A DNA stretch of 7,937 bases, from positions 1-7,937 of the forward strand of contig JAAUSP010000346.1 of the NCBI GenBank assembly GCA_012032575.1, written 5' to 3'. The DNA comes from Anaerolineales bacterium (lineage in GTDB: Bacteria > Chloroflexota > Anaerolineae > 4572-78 > J111). This document shows, one piece after another, positions 2,527 through 7,937 of the stretch. Made by a program: the position numbers and the translations under genes. Each line of letters starts with the position of its first letter. The first letter of the stretch is position 1. Under the pieces are notes generated by a model. That model was not told the origin of the DNA and made no database searches. It saw only the letters and a program-made list of their open reading frames with translations.

Positions 2527-5235
2527 TTACGGTTTAACTACCTCAATCGGCCCGATGGTAATACTGCTTGTCTCTGTCATCTGCCCATCAACAACCAGGG
2601 GCAGGTTAACGGCGCTCTCGCCTATGGTCAGATAGTAACCGATATTCAAATAGTACTCCCCCGGAGGCGCATCGGCATTGACCGGCACGGCGTAACCATC
2701 CACCACCACTTCACCCGGAGACCAGAGGAGGGTACTGTAATATTCTAAGGGCAGACGGTCATAACCGCCATACAACTTGCCGGTGCTGTCCAACAGATGA
2801 TTAAACTGCACAAAATTGGCCTGAGGCGATCTATCGGACAGGGCCTGCCAGTACAGGGTCAAAGGAAAGGCTTCACCCGCTTTGACCTGCTGCTGCGGCA
2901 GCAGATACCCCAAATACTTTAACTGGTTGGCAAAATTGGCCTCACCCGGCACGGCAATTGCCGGAATCGCAAATTCGCGCTTCCACCAATTCTCAACCGC
3001 CACCATCGGCTCGCTGCTGGCCTGACCCACTATTTGATCTCCTTGCCGCAGCGTCAGCCGCACTTGATACAACCCGCTGCTCCAGCGAGGGCCGATGACA
3101 AAGGTAAAAATATTGGCTTCAGCCAAGTCGGCGGGCCAGGCCTGGCCGGTTTCATCCACCAACTCCGCGACCAGATTACCTGTCTCAAGTGGGGGCAGCG
3201 CTGCAATCACCGCAATAGTGGCCGGGTAACGATACGGTGAGAGCGACTCTAACCTGGAGAGAGGCCCATCACTACGCCACACCTCAAAAGGCACTTCCAC
3301 AGAGGCTGCAGCGCCGATGAGGCTGAGGTGATGATGCGGCAGAGGGAGCACTGCCGGTTCAGTCAGAGTAATCTTGGTAAGCCTAAGCGCGGGGGTGGAC
3401 CTACACCTGGTCTCTTCTGCGGCGTCACAGCCCTGCTCGGTCACAGGCAGCGGCCCGGCCAAACCCCGCATTTGAATCTGAAGAGTGTACTCGCCTGCCG
3501 GGAGATCGGGTAAAGGCAGAGCCAGCCGGTCAAAAACTGAGTCGCCGGGGTCCCAGGCCAGGGTGGGCAGGCGACCTTGCCCATTGTAGCCCAGCCAATG
3601 TGAAACAACCTGCCCTTGATGGTTGAGTAAAACAAGCTTTAGTAAATAATTTTCATTCACCTGGGCCAGCGAGCGCCAGGCCAGGTTCAGGCGGAGTTGG
3701 CCCTGAGCTGGTTGGGGTTCCAACTCATAGCTGACCAGTTCGATAGCCTCGCCGAATTTAATCCCGACCGGATGGGCCAGCCACTCGGCCGACTGGGGAG
3801 CTGTCCGCATTGGAACAGGTGCCGGCGCAGCATTGACCAAATAAATTCCATGCGCTCCCGCCCAAACCATAAAACCAGCTATCAGCACAGCCAGACCCCA
3901 AGGCCGCCCCTTTGCCGGTAGCGTTGTGGTTACACCCCAGATAATTAAAACAACCACCGCTGCCAGAGCCGGGACTAAAATATGGCGGCCCTGCGCTGTT
4001 TCACCAATCCGGCGGGTCATAAAAAACCGCAGCAGTGGCAAAATAATGAAGACGCCAATGTGAAATAACAGCAGCAGCAGCCATTTGCGGGCCGGCGGTT
4101 CTGCCCGCCAAAGCTGCCACAAGCCAAATCCGGTCAGCCCCACAATTAAGGCCACAAAAATGAATATATACGGCGATAGGGGGATAGAACCATTAATACT
4201 CTCCCCCCAAAAGGATTGAAACGTTTTCTGAAGCCAACTGGCAAATGTGCCAGGCCGATAACGGGCCGGAATATCCGCCAGGCCGATCTCACCACCGCTG
4301 AAAAAGTAGCCTAGCCGGGACAGGGTAATATCCGGGCCTCCGGTAAAAATGGGACGTAACAGCCCGGCTACCCAGCCCAATTTTTTAACCTCGTTGAGAT
4401 ACCAGAAGTTCCAGCCAAACCACCAACTGGAAGCCACAATTGTGCCCGCGCCTATCCATGCCGTTCGCTGCACCCACCACCACCCACCATAGTCGCAGCG
4501 CCAGGCCAAAACCGCCAGCACCACCAGCACTTCCAGAGGTAGAATGATAGTGGTATATTTGACCGTTACTGAAACTCCCAAAACCAGGCCGAGCGCCAGA
4601 TAAAGCCAGAGTTTACCCGGTTCTTTAATCACCAAAATAAACAGCCACAGGTACAACGTGGTCAGGGCCGCCATCATGGTATCCTCGTTTAATACCGAAC
4701 TCATAAAGGTATAGGTCGGCCAAAAGGCCGCTACCCCTACTGCGGCAATGGCTAGCCAGCGTTTACCGGGCAGTAACTCTAAAAAAACGCGGTAAATAAG
4801 CCATAGATTAATTAAGCCAAACAAAATTGACAGCCAGCGCCCTAACTGCAAAACCAGAATCCGCCCCAAAAAAGGCCATACCTGATCCTCGGTGCGCAGG
4901 TAATACCAATCCCGGCCTGCATCTATAACCCGGTAGTGAAAAGAGTCCCAAAAAATTTTAATAACAGGTGGTCCACTGACATCTATGCCCATCAGCCGGC
5001 TGATATAGGCTAACAGAAGGTGATACAGCGCCGGCCAATTGGAGTCCTTACCAATCAAGGCCCTTTCTTCATAACTTACGGGTAATCGGCCCGTGGTGAT
5101 CAGAAACTCGGTGTAGGCCAGGTTTGTCTCTTCGTCCGGGCCTTCGTTAAAGGCAGCTACCTGGCTCATCATCAAGCTCAGGCTAAGGTAAAGGATAATG
5201 ATAATGCTCAGGGTTAGCTTTTGCTTGCCATTCAT
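2527..5235 (-). CDS. GT39/PMT-like GT-C glycosyltransferase with two C-terminal beta-sandwich modules
   Basis: This 902-residue protein is the intact reference for the family here. Residues 1-467 form the membrane transferase: helix 1 (about 7-28), acidic motif D34-E35-E36 in the first outer loop, RTEDQVWP (114-121), GRWLSILFG (132-140), SSVLNEDT (179-186), VKYTTIILPLE (225-235) and TAQGRHIL (413-420), with about 11-12 helices. After a Pro/Ala linker (469-480), residues 481-902 are extracytoplasmic. Two related beta-rich modules lie there (about 495-590 and 769-868), each with a 'L.L.W..L' strand, a W-x-PG-(D/E) turn and a final PxGEY strand; the second has the typical LTLYWQAL. A less clear beta region lies at 640-745. 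Cys603 and Cys611 could form a disulphide. The modules may bind glycan or acceptor, a role not proven for this family. The start overlaps the upstream stop as ATGA, and GAGGT lies 9 nt before it. Sugar donor and acceptor unknown. Confidence 0.92.
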   Translation of the reverse strand: MNGKQKLTLSIIIILYLSLSLMMSQVAAFNEGPDEETNLAYTEFLITTGRLPVSYEERALIGKDSNWPALYHLLLAYISRLMGIDVSGPPVIKIFWDSFHYRVIDAGRDWYYLRTEDQVWPFLGRILVLQLGRWLSILFGLINLWLIYRVFLELLPGKRWLAIAAVGVAAFWPTYTFMSSVLNEDTMMAALTTLYLWLFILVIKEPGKLWLYLALGLVLGVSVTVKYTTIILPLEVLVVLAVLAWRCDYGGWWWVQRTAWIGAGTIVASSWWFGWNFWYLNEVKKLGWVAGLLRPIFTGGPDITLSRLGYFFSGGEIGLADIPARYRPGTFASWLQKTFQSFWGESINGSIPLSPYIFIFVALIVGLTGFGLWQLWRAEPPARKWLLLLLFHIGVFIILPLLRFFMTRRIGETAQGRHILVPALAAVVVLIIWGVTTTLPAKGRPWGLAVLIAGFMVWAGAHGIYLVNAAPAPVPMRTAPQSAEWLAHPVGIKFGEAIELVSYELEPQPAQGQLRLNLAWRSLAQVNENYLLKLVLLNHQGQVVSHWLGYNGQGRLPTLAWDPGDSVFDRLALPLPDLPAGEYTLQIQMRGLAGPLPVTEQGCDAAEETRCRSTPALRLTKITLTEPAVLPLPHHHLSLIGAAASVEVPFEVWRSDGPLSRLESLSPYRYPATIAVIAALPPLETGNLVAELVDETGQAWPADLAEANIFTFVIGPRWSSGLYQVRLTLRQGDQIVGQASSEPMVAVENWWKREFAIPAIAVPGEANFANQLKYLGYLLPQQQVKAGEAFPLTLYWQALSDRSPQANFVQFNHLLDSTGKLYGGYDRLPLEYYSTLLWSPGEVVVDGYAVPVNADAPPGEYYLNIGYYLTIGESAVNLPLVVDGQMTETSSITIGPIEVVKP

Positions 5236-7694
5236 CTGGCAGTTACCTCGATGCGTTGAAGTACAACGCCATTATCAATGGTCCCCTGAACGGATAAACG
5301 CGCACCCGTGTCAAAATCATACATGCCCACCACCACTTCGTACTCATCCGCCCTGACATCTTCTAAAGGAATAATTATTTCATCCTTTATAATTTCACCG
5401 GCGTCCCACAGACTGGTCGGGTAAGCGCCGCCGGCCGGAGGGGTATCCTTTTGGGCCACAGTTTGTCCCCCGGCATCGCGCACATGGGCAAAAACGGTAT
5501 AATTGGTTTGAACAGCGGTCAAAGCCTGCCAATAGAGCGTCAGATGAAGCAAAGCAGATGTATGGAAGATGGGAAGGTTGGCTGCACTTTCCTGTAACTT
5601 GCCGGCTGGTTGACTGGTTAAATCAAAACCCAACAATTTAATCTGCTCTCCCAGAACAGCCCCAACTTCAATCCGAGGAGCCGCGACGACGACGGGAATA
5701 CCCGGCGGCGGGCCACCGACCTTGACCGGCCCTATCGTTACCGCCGTTAGCCCGTTTGGTTCGCCGCTGGCCGGATCAAGAATTGGCAGCGAGTCGGCCT
5801 GCTCGCCAACCCGCCGGTACCAACCCAAACTCACAGTGTAGACTCCCGGCGGCGTTGTGGGGTCAATCGGGACGGCAAAGCCATCGCTCACAATTTCGCC
5901 GGGTGCCCAGTAGAGGGTGCTGTAATTTTCTTTGGCCCGGCGGTCGTACCCGCCCCAGGACATCCCTGCATTATCCAGCAAACGATTAAAAATGACAAAA
6001 TCCTCCCCCATCCAGCGCAATCCCTGCCAATAAAGTGTGATCGGCAAGCCTTCCCCTGGTTGAACCCGGCGGGTGGGCAAATCATAACCCAGCAGGTTGA
6101 TTTGCCCGGCAAAATTAGCCTCCAAGGGGTGAGAGAACGGCGGTATCTGGAAATTGCGCCCGCTTTCGGCGACCCGCAAAACCACCTGTCCATCAGACTG
6201 CCAGCGATACTCTCCCGCCGGCCAATCCGGGCCGATGATAAAATTGGCCCAGGTTTCGCCCAGCGAAACCGGCGGGCGCGGGAGGTGGTCGGGACCGATG
6301 AGGTAGAGATTGGAGATTGGAGATTGGAGATTGGTAAGAGTAAACTGCGCCGTTTCGCGTTCCCGCAGAAGGGGGGGATGGCGAACCGTCTGTCCATCGT
6401 GCCACAAAAGCCATTGGGCCGATTCGTTCGCCTGCGGCTGTGCCGTCGCAGTGAGAGTATAGGTCGAAAGAGTTTGCCAATCCAGCACCGGCCCATTTTC
6501 GCCTAAAATCCGCCAACGAATCTGATAATCTCCACGCGAAGCATCTAATCCCTCAAGCGGCAGCCAGCCCTCATCGCGGATGGTATCGCCCGCTTCCCAG
6601 ACGCGGGTGGGATAACGGGCCTGGGTTTGATAGCCCAGCCAACTGGCGCGAACCTGTCCCTGGCTATCCAGCAGCGCCAGCTCCATTTGATAATCCTCCG
6701 GGGCCGGCTCGGCCCCGCCCTGCCATAAAACGACGACGCGCAAAACTGGCAGGGTGGGGATGAGCGCGTTCAGCCATCCCGGCTCCACCGGGGTGGCACT
6801 GGCCTTCATCAGTACCGCGCCGCCGGGCAAGGTAATCGGGGGCGGAGGCGTTGCCGCTTGCGGGACGGGGGGTGTACGCACCGGCAAGAGCGGAGGGTAG
6901 CCGGTCCACAGTGAGATAAGTTGGAGGACTGATCCGGCCAACAACAGTCCGGTCAGACCGTAAAACGTGATGCGTGATGCGTGATGCGTGATGCGTGAGC
7001 TACCGATAAAGGACCGACTCTCAGCCATCATACTTGATACCTGACCCGTGACCCTTTGTACTCCCCAAACTACCAGGATAGCCAGCGCGGGACCGGCCAA
7101 AAACAGGACGTGCCGGCCCTGGACCGCTTCGAGGGCATCGCGTGCGCCAAAAAGACGAACGGCCATAAAAGGCAAAGACAGCAAACAGTGCAGCAACAAC
7201 AGAGAGACGACGCGAAGCGGGCGGGGAGGCGAGGAGGCGAGGAGAGAGGAGGCAGGTTGATCTGACCCGTTGAACAAGCGCAAGCGCCGGGGCCATTTGA
7301 CCAGGCCAAACAGAGCAACAATAGCTATACCTGTCATCACGATAACAAACCCATTCAGAGCAACGGAAGGGATGACAGGATTAATCCAGAAGGTGGTGAA
7401 AAATCCGCTGATAAGCTGCCAGACGGAATAATGCTGCTGGTCAATATGGGCCGGCGCGGGAGACTGACCGCCGCTGATGAAAGCAAAAATCTGCTCCACC
7501 GTGCGGTCGCTGCCGTCGCCGCGCAGCAACGGGGCCACAGTGCCGAGCACCGGCCCGTAACGTTCGATTTCATTAAAGTTGACCAGCAGATAGCTGAACC
7601 AGGGGATGATCACTAAAACAAAAGCCAGGGCAGCCTGTCCCAATTTGAGCAGGGGAGCAGGGGAGCGGGGGGCGGGGGGAAGCTTCAATTTCAC
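5232..7694 (-). CDS. 3' part of a frameshifted GT39/PMT-like glycosyltransferase with three beta-sandwich modules and repeat insertions
   Basis: This 820-codon frame begins in mid-domain. Its first possible start, GTG at 7694, lies inside an inverted repeat and is unlikely to be the natural start; the true N-terminal part is in another frame at 7573-7937. Visible here are helices at about 20-40, 110-133, 162-180, 195-212 and 244-262, and the family motif VQGRHVLF (191-198). The extracytoplasmic C-terminus has three related beta modules: about 315-398, 529-626 (LYWQGL, GGYDRR) and 682-793 (LTLYWQAL, WDAGE). The third is absent from the 902-residue neighbour. Repeat-derived insertions interrupt it at 145-161, 218-243 and 455-462, all in loops or linkers and all in frame. 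An intact protein would be about 1,070 residues. The transferase may be inactive if the frame break is real. The last codons overlap the next gene by 4 bp. Confident as a GT-C family member; substrate unknown. Confidence 0.82.
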   Translation of the reverse strand: MKLKLPPAPRSPAPLLKLGQAALAFVLVIIPWFSYLLVNFNEIERYGPVLGTVAPLLRGDGSDRTVEQIFAFISGGQSPAPAHIDQQHYSVWQLISGFFTTFWINPVIPSVALNGFVIVMTGIAIVALFGLVKWPRRLRLFNGSDQPASSLLASSPPRPLRVVSLLLLHCLLSLPFMAVRLFGARDALEAVQGRHVLFLAGPALAILVVWGVQRVTGQVSSMMAESRSFIGSSRITHHASRITFYGLTGLLLAGSVLQLISLWTGYPPLLPVRTPPVPQAATPPPPITLPGGAVLMKASATPVEPGWLNALIPTLPVLRVVVLWQGGAEPAPEDYQMELALLDSQGQVRASWLGYQTQARYPTRVWEAGDTIRDEGWLPLEGLDASRGDYQIRWRILGENGPVLDWQTLSTYTLTATAQPQANESAQWLLWHDGQTVRHPPLLRERETAQFTLTNLQSPISNLYLIGPDHLPRPPVSLGETWANFIIGPDWPAGEYRWQSDGQVVLRVAESGRNFQIPPFSHPLEANFAGQINLLGYDLPTRRVQPGEGLPITLYWQGLRWMGEDFVIFNRLLDNAGMSWGGYDRRAKENYSTLYWAPGEIVSDGFAVPIDPTTPPGVYTVSLGWYRRVGEQADSLPILDPASGEPNGLTAVTIGPVKVGGPPPGIPVVVAAPRIEVGAVLGEQIKLLGFDLTSQPAGKLQESAANLPIFHTSALLHLTLYWQALTAVQTNYTVFAHVRDAGGQTVAQKDTPPAGGAYPTSLWDAGEIIKDEIIIPLEDVRADEYEVVVGMYDFDTGARLSVQGTIDNGVVLQRIEVTAR
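5245..5249 (-). promoter_or_regulatory. Ribosome binding site (GAGGT) of the 902-residue glycosyltransferase
   Basis: On the minus strand GAGGT lies 9 nt before the ATG at 5235, inside the last codons of the upstream gene. It is the only convincing Shine-Dalgarno sequence before a start in this window. It supports the ATG of the 4-bp ATGA overlap as the true start and suggests translational coupling. Confidence 0.65.
5564..5581. repeat. Possible degenerate 8-mer pair in module 3 of the first gene
   Basis: GGAAGATG is followed directly by GGAAGGTT, then GG: two 8-mers differing at two positions. They sit where the third beta module has extra residues (around NLPIF, 706-710) before LTLYWQAL, compared with the second module. 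This may be a worn copy of a tandem repeat like those elsewhere in the gene. With only two imperfect units it could be chance. Confidence 0.25.
6306..6334. repeat. Heptamer tandem repeat (gagattg)x4 within coding sequence
   Basis: Four perfect copies of GAGATTG fill 6306-6333, plus one more G. On the coding strand the unit reads CAATCTC and the translation is NLQSPISN (455-462 of the 820-codon frame). Seven-base units return to frame only every three copies, giving a seven-residue period. It resembles the short tandemly repeated heptamers described in cyanobacteria and is familiar from Chloroflexota. It lies in a linker between beta modules 1 and 2, where the paralogue at 2527-5235 has nothing similar. 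Confidence 0.9.
6699..6717. other. Perfect 8-bp G/C hairpin with 3-nt loop within coding sequence
   Basis: CGGGGCCG, then GCT, then CGGCCCCG make a perfect stem inside codons for GGAEPAP (residues 326-332 of the 820-codon frame), in beta module 1. No U-run follows on either strand, so a terminator is unlikely. A G/C-rich coding region can produce such a stem by chance. Confidence 0.4.
6966..6998. repeat. Heptamer tandem repeat (cgtgatg)x4.7 within coding sequence
   Basis: Four perfect copies of CGTGATG (6966-6993) are followed by five bases of a fifth (6994-6998). The coding strand reads CATCACG repeats, translated as SRITHHASRIT (233-243 of the 820-codon frame). It is part of a 22-residue excess over the paralogue at 38-1429, placed between two membrane helices: TG-PKYQR-YGL there, TG-27 residues-YGL here. 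The array is an insertion that kept the frame. Confidence 0.9.
7219..7255. repeat. Purine-rich tract with 8-mer repeats (gaggcgag) within coding sequence
   Basis: The plus strand has an almost pure purine run broken only by single C bases. It contains two perfect copies of GAGGCGAG (7226-7241) flanked by worn copies. It encodes SSLLASSPPRPLR (149-161 of the 820-codon frame), in a cytoplasmic loop about 16 residues longer than in the paralogues. The frame is kept. It looks like the same class of insertion as the two heptamer arrays, with a different unit. Confidence 0.65.
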
Positions 7695-7937
7695 CCCTGC
7701 CCCTCTGCTCCCCTGCCCCCCTGCTGAAGGCCAAGAACATAATCTCCAGGGGCAGCAGTGCGGTTAAATACTTGGTCAGCAAGGCCAGTCCGGCCAACGC
7801 GCCCAGCCCCCAGAACCCCCAGCGTAAATTATAGCCTCTGGCTATCCGAACCCCCAGCCACAGAAACAGCGAAGCCACCAACAGGGTCAAACTGTCGTAA
7901 TTAAACAGTATCCCGGTAAACAGAAACCGCGGAGAAG
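7573..7937 (-). CDS. 5' part of the frameshifted GT39/PMT-like glycosyltransferase (partial, runs off the right edge)
   Basis: From the window edge this frame reads SPRFLFTGILFNYDSLT and continues through a helix, then LLTKYLTALLPLEIMFLA. It matches 175-241 of the protein at 38-1429 (PRFTF..SDET..ITKYSAVVLPLE) and the same region of the 902-residue paralogue. It is the middle of the GT-C membrane domain, so about 175 upstream residues, including the DE motif, lie beyond the window. The meaningful sequence ends near 7728. From there the frame enters the inverted repeat (SRGAGEQRGRGE...) and reads non-family sequence to the stop at 7573, while the family sequence resumes in the frame ending at 5232. 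Internal TTG or other start codons here are not credible starts. A one-base change within the homopolymer-rich repeat would rejoin the parts. Confidence 0.75.
   Translation of the reverse strand, partial: SPRFLFTGILFNYDSLTLLVASLFLWLGVRIARGYNLRWGFWGLGALAGLALLTKYLTALLPLEIMFLAFSRGAGEQRGRGEIEASPRPPLPCSPAQIGTGCPGFCFSDHPLVQLSAGQL
7648..7725. repeat. Inverted repeat of 8-mer arrays (agcagggg) with G-quadruplex motifs on both strands
   Basis: Two 32-nt arms (7648-7679 and 7694-7725) are reverse complements at 26 of 32 positions and flank a 14-nt spacer. Each arm consists of four 8-mer units related to AGCAGGGG. The plus strand of the left arm has four G-runs (7652-7655, 7660-7663, 7667-7672, 7674-7679) with loops of 1-4 nt. 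The minus strand of the right arm likewise has four G-runs with loops of 2-6 nt. Each arm thus fits a G-quadruplex pattern, on opposite strands. The element lies in the cytoplasmic loop after the LPLE helix of the glycosyltransferase, exactly where the reading frame changes. Confidence 0.85.

Follow-up and report, generated by a model that had tools for sequence, protein, structure and literature searches.

Heptamer and octamer arrays in the coding sequence of a Chloroflexota membrane glycosyltransferase gene

Repeat arrays in the window gene

The stretch of DNA analyzed here (the window) comprises 7,937 nucleotides (nt) of contig JAAUSP010000346.1 from an Anaerolineales bacterium (Chloroflexota; assembly GCA_012032575.1) and carries four genes, all on the minus strand, of which three encode membrane glycosyltransferases with PMT_2 matches and one is a GDSL-type gene. 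One of the glycosyltransferase genes, referred to as the target gene, holds short tandem arrays with units of 7 and 8 nt inside its coding sequence. When all 7937 bases were scanned by lag at periods from 4 to 20, five arrays were detected, with periods of 7 and 8 plus their doubles, all of them in the target gene (Table 1). The initial annotation, made from the sequence alone, had claimed four clear tracts with different units, and these were borne out by the lag scan and a tandem-repeat search: an inverted pair of octamer arrays (site B), an imperfect octamer array of unit GGCGAGGA with 81% matches (site C, array at 7220–7253), the CGTGATG array (site D), with 100% matches and a register common to the arrays of four orthologues, and the GAGATTG array (site E). 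Both heptamer arrays qualify as heptanucleotide simple sequence repeats (SSRs), defined as tandem 7-nt units in at least three copies. The fifth tract, put forward earlier as a possibility, is apparently an octamer-array relic (site F), as its residues NLPIFHTS (706–713) align with a clean AACCTTCC array (NLPTFQPS) in the relative L070; site F thus looks like a decayed form of that array. At a lower threshold, Tandem Repeats Finder reported two weak repeats in the paralogue at 2527–5235, one of period 10 (1.9 copies, 4471–4489) and one of period 9 (2.2 copies, 4511–4530). The claim that neighboring genes are free of arrays held within the window and failed elsewhere, since 8 of 11 paralogue open reading frames (ORFs) of other genomes carry arrays.

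The main frame of the target gene contains the last part of the membrane domain followed by beta-rich domains; its homologues reach 64% identity, self excepted, and a Pfam scan of this frame gave no match. The separate N-terminal frame, which overlaps the main frame by 122 bases, matches PF13231 at 36 bits against a cut-off of 26.1, and the target gene is a predicted PMT_2 / GT39-type membrane glycosyltransferase. An Rfam search of the whole window at gathering scores gave no matches.

As placed by homology, the frame shift of the target gene falls inside the inverted octamer pair of site B, across which both reading frames are open, and the other three tracts keep the frame, as the initial annotation had proposed. 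The 96 nt of site B were predicted to fold as RNA at −68.2 kcal/mol (z −5.97), and the frame break may stem from a true indel, from a change in units or from an error in the sequence. The repeats at contingency loci of phase-variable genes are likewise non-triplet, with a frame break in the array, and by analogy the loss or gain of units at the octamer hairpin would switch the enzyme, the present frame break being its off state. The position of the break and the openness of both frames fit this reading, as do some homologues, among them P0016 (916 amino acids, on a contig of 50 kb), that come from long contigs and have no N-terminal domain. However, the 29 matches listed for 19 genomes in a search of the class have no internal stops and open frames of at least 983 amino acids, and a single wrong base in one of the G or C runs of the strong hairpin would explain the break equally well, so that we consider switching very doubtful. 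The window gene also differs from contingency loci, which are touched on in the accessible text of PMC3711429, in having several arrays and, on its one contig, no sign of switching. P0016 itself starts just past the loop of site A (an N-terminal loop bearing arrays in homologues) and may represent a second case of a gene interrupted where an array sits.

The frame break would also fit a decaying pseudogene that collects junk, and the initial annotation had offered relaxed selection on the gene as an explanation for its repeats. In a tree of 60 proteins and 738 core columns, the root-to-tip distance of the window protein was 0.816, compared to 0.777–0.846 for six sister proteins. With this ordinary branch length relaxed selection is not supported, and open orthologues bear arrays of the same kind, making decay, which was disfavored already, highly unlikely.

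A predicted model of the target protein (mean predicted local distance difference test score, pLDDT, 72.4; predicted template modeling score, pTM, 0.62; membrane part badly resolved) was used to place the tracts, which had been said to fall in loops. Arrays C and E are coil in the model, with E between predicted strands, in agreement with that claim; all of array D (residues 233–243), on the other hand, falls at the beginning of a predicted helix (233–265), and relic F overlaps a short predicted strand (709–711), with low confidence near C, D and F (pLDDT below 50 at 135–158, 227–234 and 696–705). The tracts had also been said to add residues relative to the window paralogues, which is the case for C and D but not for E, which aligns with the 2527–5235 paralogue without net insertion.

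Table 1 Coordinates of the features (window positions unless a locus is named)
Feature	Position	Strand	Description
Site B	7645–7679 / 7694–7728	−	inverted pair of AGCAGGGG-type octamer arrays; predicted hairpin; frame change
Site C	7218..7253	−	imperfect octamer array; coding strand CCTCGCCT type; residues 151–159
Site D	6966..6998	−	heptamer array CGTGATG x4.7; coding strand ATCACGC; residues 233–243
Site E	6306..6334	−	heptamer array GAGATTG x4.1; coding strand ATCTCCA; residues 454–463; 100% matches
Site F	5556..5579	−	apparent relic of AACCTTCC octamer array; residues 706–713
Target gene, main frame	5232..7694	−	820 amino acids; start GTG at octamer hairpin
Target gene, N-terminal (PMT_2) part	7573..7937	−	other frame; runs off window
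Paralogue (PMT_2), comparison gene	2527..5235	−	without period-7 or period-8 arrays
Repair-type array genes, G001	L014:15017–17359, L015:5054–11424, L026:16730–19966		
20-nt GC-rich element copies	L031:14952, L045:18234 (G002), L008:11238 = L074 (G008)		

Place and register of the arrays in homologues

Arrays were compared in 28 ORFs, comprising 10 orthologues (window included) and 18 further homologues, with the paralogue locus L091 left out. In these, period 7 was represented by 37 arrays, periods 8 and 14 by 12 each and period 16 by 3, compared to 0–2 at each other period from 4 to 20; the triplet periods 6, 9, 12 and 15 had one, one, two and one. Codon shuffles gave 0 to 0.3 arrays per period and none at period 7 or 8. 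At least one array was present in 9 of the 10 orthologues, 27 arrays in total, with periods 7, 8 and 14–16, and they recur at the same places: 48 pairs of arrays overlap between orthologues, compared to 6.4 under uniform placement and 20.2 when placed in equally variable spans, where 1 of 300 placements reached 48. The columns that the arrays occupy are variable, with a mean conservation of 0.33 (highest 0.47) against 0.64 overall.

At site D the arrays also agree in register, which was defined by dividing the sequence ahead of the conserved GLLL codon into blocks of seven, starting at that codon. The blocks read ATCACGC in the window, CTCACGC in L071, TTCACGT in L072, TTTACGT and TTCAGGT in L070, TTCAAAT in L077 and GTTTTTA in L074. 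With units taken by rule from all six period-7 arrays, unfiltered (ATCACGC, CTCACGC, TTCACGT, TTCACGT, GTTTTTA, TTCAAAT), the mean in-register distance was 3.40 compared to 5.11 over all registers, and 22 of 16807 register choices were as good. Eight of 13 overlapping pairs were uniquely best in register and one was tied, the remaining four all involving L074; without L074, 9 of 9 pairs were best or tied (2.11 vs 5.61). When the register was inferred from the protein, 16 distinct heptamers at site D gave 3.76 vs 5.10 (0 of 5000 choices as good) and 12 heptamers at site E gave 4.26 vs 4.82 (fraction 0.0048), values that may owe something to the conserved beginning of the helix that follows. Five of six D arrays in one register point to one inherited array whose copies change together, and the array at site D in five of the six genes is most likely a single inherited one homogenized in concert, with a different array in L074. 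The tracts had been regarded as a set of recent separate insertions, a view that is not supported, since site D looks like one inherited array.

Several results weigh against extending this reading, or offer another account of it. The L074 unit at site D is unrelated (0 of 4 pairs in register). Agreement at site E is partial, with 2 of 6 pairs best or tied (3.17 vs 5.11) and an equally good fit for 5 of 343 register choices; two of its four units are identical. At site A, 2 of 13 pairs were best or tied (5.0 vs 4.97), at site F 0 of 1 pair was in register, and paralogue arrays at common places gave 3 of 13 (4.92 vs 4.99). Indels between array and anchor could scramble a register as well, a caveat that applies to the paralogues too; the D register could be held by selection for a peptide pattern ahead of the helix; and no single slippage event was seen in the compared sequences. 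A common register as a general rule was tried on all sites and paralogues and fails outside D, with E in between. The seemingly random registers at site A and among paralogues suggest separate origin or replacement, and there seem to be two modes, inheritance with homogenization at D and new or replaced arrays elsewhere.

These out-of-register arrays at site A, in L074 and in the paralogues, together with the presence of both octamers and heptamers at site F, are what would be expected if arrays were only ever seeded independently, new ones arising in tolerant stretches while old ones decay and orthologues resemble one another through a common vocabulary of units. This is a serious alternative that we nonetheless think unlikely, given the single register of five of six D arrays.

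To look for array-encoded peptides at these sites, 108 units were collected from other DNA, from which two stretches holding orthologue genes were excluded. Array peptides of at least 6 residues were found in 9 of 74 segments at C, 27 of 77 at D, 23 of 81 at E and 9 of 79 at F, compared to 0.05–0.3 with shuffled units and 10 of 1418 other spans of the same proteins. A dictionary of 117 units that includes those of the two orthologue genes raised the counts to 13, 32, 26 and 10, respectively, with 13 of 1344 other spans. Segments with an array peptide were longer than those without at C and F (26 vs 17), not clearly so at D (30 vs 26, p 0.08), and at E had a median length of 18 either way. On the tree, unit labels change 22 times at D and 9 times at F, nearly as many as for shuffled labels (24.3 and 9.6), and at E and C the counts of 13 and 12 (shuffled 16.0 and 15.8) equal the lowest of 200 shuffles, indicating some inheritance there. 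Among close pairs of unequal length at site D, 24 of 44 differ by a multiple of 7 residues, equivalent to three heptamers, compared to 1 of 28 at E, 7 of 37 at F and 2 of 48 at C; the pairs are not independent. The proposal that selection keeps arrays in tolerant stretches and in multiples of three is supported in part, by the variable stretches and by the frame-keeping steps at D, and not by the steps at E, F and C. In protein comparisons, the unit type has changed at site F between L071 and P0011 (84% identity), and P0005 and P0008 (86% identity) have changed segments of equal length at site E; no closer genome pair was found among 12 genomes of the G001 family.

Arrays across the genomes of relatives

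The relatives G001, G002 and G008 stand in for the genome of the window in all genome-wide statements. A strict census of exact arrays with at least 3 copies in 400 contiguous kb of G001 gave 17 arrays at period 7, 6 at period 8 and 4 at period 14, compared to 1 at period 5, 2 at period 6 and none at 9–13; one order-2 Markov shuffle of the same DNA had none at periods 7 and 8, and at period 4 there were 11 arrays compared to 7 in the shuffle. A more tolerant scan gave 62 period-7 and 13 period-8 arrays in 480 kb of G001, 80 kb of which were hand-chosen stretches (129 and 27 per Mb), 27 and 7 in 410 kb of G002 (66 and 17 per Mb), and 110 and 20 per Mb in G008. Two Nostoc plasmids had 60 and 25, and 30 and 0, arrays per Mb at periods 7 and 8, compared to none in 200 kb of a Rhizobium control plasmid and one period-7 and no period-8 array in 200 kb of a Streptomyces control plasmid (5 and 0 per Mb). 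Period 7 is over-represented against neighboring periods in these samples of relatives, as in heptanucleotide SSRs, and the suggestion that some process seeds short arrays is supported for them, genome-wide and with 7 and 8 as the preferred periods both inside genes and outside.

Among intergenic arrays, too, period 7 is the most frequent (24 of 45 in G001, 10 of 19 in G002), indicating that the period comes from mutation and not from coding selection. Counting all periods, 46 of 91 arrays in G001 (ORF share of the DNA 0.818) and 34 of 53 in G002 (0.834) lie inside ORFs. Arrays per base are depleted in ORFs in both genomes, and they are not mainly intergenic.

All four window units were found as arrays in the 400 kb of G001 (AATCTCC, ACGCATC, AGCAGGGG and AGGAGGCG), as independent seeding would have it, but the vocabulary is common only in part: G001 and G002 have 10 units in common (reverse-order control 3), G001 and G008 only 1 (control 1). 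Single units are patchy across the phylum. GAGATTG x3 occurs in 12 of 400 genomes, with 45 hits in G001 and one hit in one genome for the backward control, and is missing in 6 of the 9 genomes from which the first orthologue loci came; CACGCAT x3 occurs in 9 of 400 (control 2 hits, one genome). The highest count of GAGATTG x3 among the 400 genomes was in G726, with 260 hits in 5.6 Mb. Sharing of units with Nostoc is weak by census, because 6 units are common (of 114 and 25) compared to a control of 3. In a plasmid BLAST search, Nostoc contributed 8 of 13 records for GAGATTG, 24 of 40 for AGCAGGGG and 0 of 16 for CGTGATG, numbers that are not scaled to the Nostoc share of the collection; the reverse-order controls returned 8 records, every one from Borrelia, and 2 records.

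Within genes the arrays are denser in predicted membrane proteins. By a hydropathy rule, ORFs with at least 5 membrane helices carry 307 arrays per Mb in G001, compared to 80 and 46 in others, and 332 per Mb in G002, compared to 19 and 11. Because of this difference (307 and 332 against 11–80 per Mb elsewhere), a dedicated enzyme or repair pathway that rewrites 7–8-nt arrays, with a unit length set by the enzyme, and thereby diversifies GT-C type glycosyltransferases can be proposed, a tentative reading that we hold to be improbable. In Pfam scans, which took in 40 of the 76 listed ORFs, arrays were present in 7 of 11 polytopic ORFs of the PMT_2, PMT, YfhO, DUF2079 or DUF1616 families, one of the seven (L049:6823) matching only below cut-offs, and in 2 of 14 of other Pfam families; six polytopic ORFs without a Pfam match, two of them array-bearing, were left out of this count. 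We take these five families to share the GT-C fold. G001 stretches picked for many PMT_2 genes had 550 period-7 arrays per Mb, a sample biased by that choice. At an E-value limit of 0.001, 77 PMT_2 matches were counted in the G001 genome. Of the 15 arrays that the G001 sample has in ORFs lacking predicted membrane helices, 12 lie in DNA-repair type genes, namely two UvrD-like genes, of which one is a weak match, and the genes of RecJ, Mfd and a PD-(D/E)XK nuclease.

Small mobile elements built as array, loop and inverted array could also carry such repeats. In G001, an inverted partner lies within 90 nt of 11 of 34 intergenic arrays, as this would predict, yet inverted partners were found for only 2 of 35 genic arrays in G001 and for 1 of 27 genic and 0 of 15 intergenic arrays in G002, and hairpin loops and flanks look, by eye, unconserved between copies, which makes the chance of such carriage remote. 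As a separate observation, hairpins of array, short loop and inverted array sometimes stand near GAGATTG arrays in G001 (L051, L052, L058, L060, L062 and L066), and for three of the G001 hairpin arrays the folding energy was −36 to −37 kcal/mol. An element of 20 nt, rich in GC (GAGCCGAAGGCCCCCTATGG type, with 2 mismatches at most), was found no more than 12 nt from a 7- or 8-mer array in 3 of its 4 distinct copies in the stretches searched; at site E of L074 the insert measures 21 nt, in three blocks of seven. Small dispersed repeats are reportedly inserted in cyanobacterial heptad arrays (Elhai 2008), and the 20-nt element similarly abuts or splits arrays in G002 and G008; it differs in having only four distinct copies here.

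Origin of the arrays and relation to known repeats

We favor, at a probability of about 0.57, the reading that the tracts are coding stretches which hold 7- and 8-nt arrays produced by a genome-wide process and which are shaped by homogenization and selection. Copies are identical or nearly so inside one gene and different between genes. As 7 and 8 are not multiples of 3, successive copies stand in different codon phases, and protein selection alone cannot maintain near-identity under these conditions. Replication slippage or template switching that favors units of 7 and 8 nt would generate arrays throughout the genome, a variant in one copy would spread along its array by slippage, giving concerted evolution at a 7-base scale, and selection would purge products with a broken frame, stops or entry into the conserved core. 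The arrays at site A, probably at F, in L074 at D and in the paralogues would have arisen or been replaced separately. For the unit length, the simplest guess is a polymerase contact of about 7 nt, as put forward by others: an earlier proposal, reported in the accessible part of PMC4679880, is that 7 nt may be the length contacting the polymerase.

Selection could instead make and keep the peptide pattern, with the DNA repeats as a by-product. The D array at the start of a predicted helix, two orthologue arrays at F that end at the LTLYW strand, and L098, in which by eye a rhythm of 7 residues seems to persist at D though little of the DNA repeat does, are consistent with this, but the tandem copies are nearly identical in nucleotides though read in three codon phases and the same period recurs in intergenic arrays, leaving peptide selection as the source of the pattern quite improbable.

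Heptanucleotide repeats as such are already known. In the accessible parts of the papers, dispersed 7-mers are described in Xanthomonas and Nostoc (GGGNATC; PMC4692102), a heptanucleotide repeat TAACTGA in Beggiatoaceae (PMC4679880) and a heptamer family GATAGRA in Chloroflexus (PMC6749651). The arrays described here resemble heptanucleotide SSRs, reported in Chloroflexus and cyanobacteria, in their 7-nt units and dispersed copies; those SSRs, however, are described in the same accessible texts as mainly intergenic, or multiples of three are expected in genes, while the window gene has coding 7- and 8-mers at recurrent places and one site with a register common to orthologues. The tandem repeats of Borg elements, as far as the accessible text of PMC9879509 goes, are also numerous in ORFs, enriched in membrane or extracellular proteins and subject to fast turnover; all units of Borg ORF repeats are divisible by three, compared to few in the glycosyltransferase ORFs here. 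No paper pairing heptamer repeats with Chloroflexota was found in the open-licence literature, nor, in the parts of that literature accessible to us, a description of a non-triplet coding array with a register common to orthologues, which may be in print elsewhere. Homogenized non-triplet coding arrays at recurrent sites are what is new. The feature is real and more general than the initial annotation held, and site D is its one well-supported new aspect.

A 7-nt unit gives the same 7-residue peptide in all three frames, so that an array is usable in any frame as long as it is free of stops. These genes therefore offer a natural case in which non-triplet DNA repeats become protein sequence over long evolutionary time, and they make it possible to test what fixes the period of 7 nt in bacterial repeats and whether parts of proteins can be shaped by mutation bias alone. 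In this glycosyltransferase family, parts of the proteins seem to be rewritten again and again by a copying habit that acts throughout the genome.

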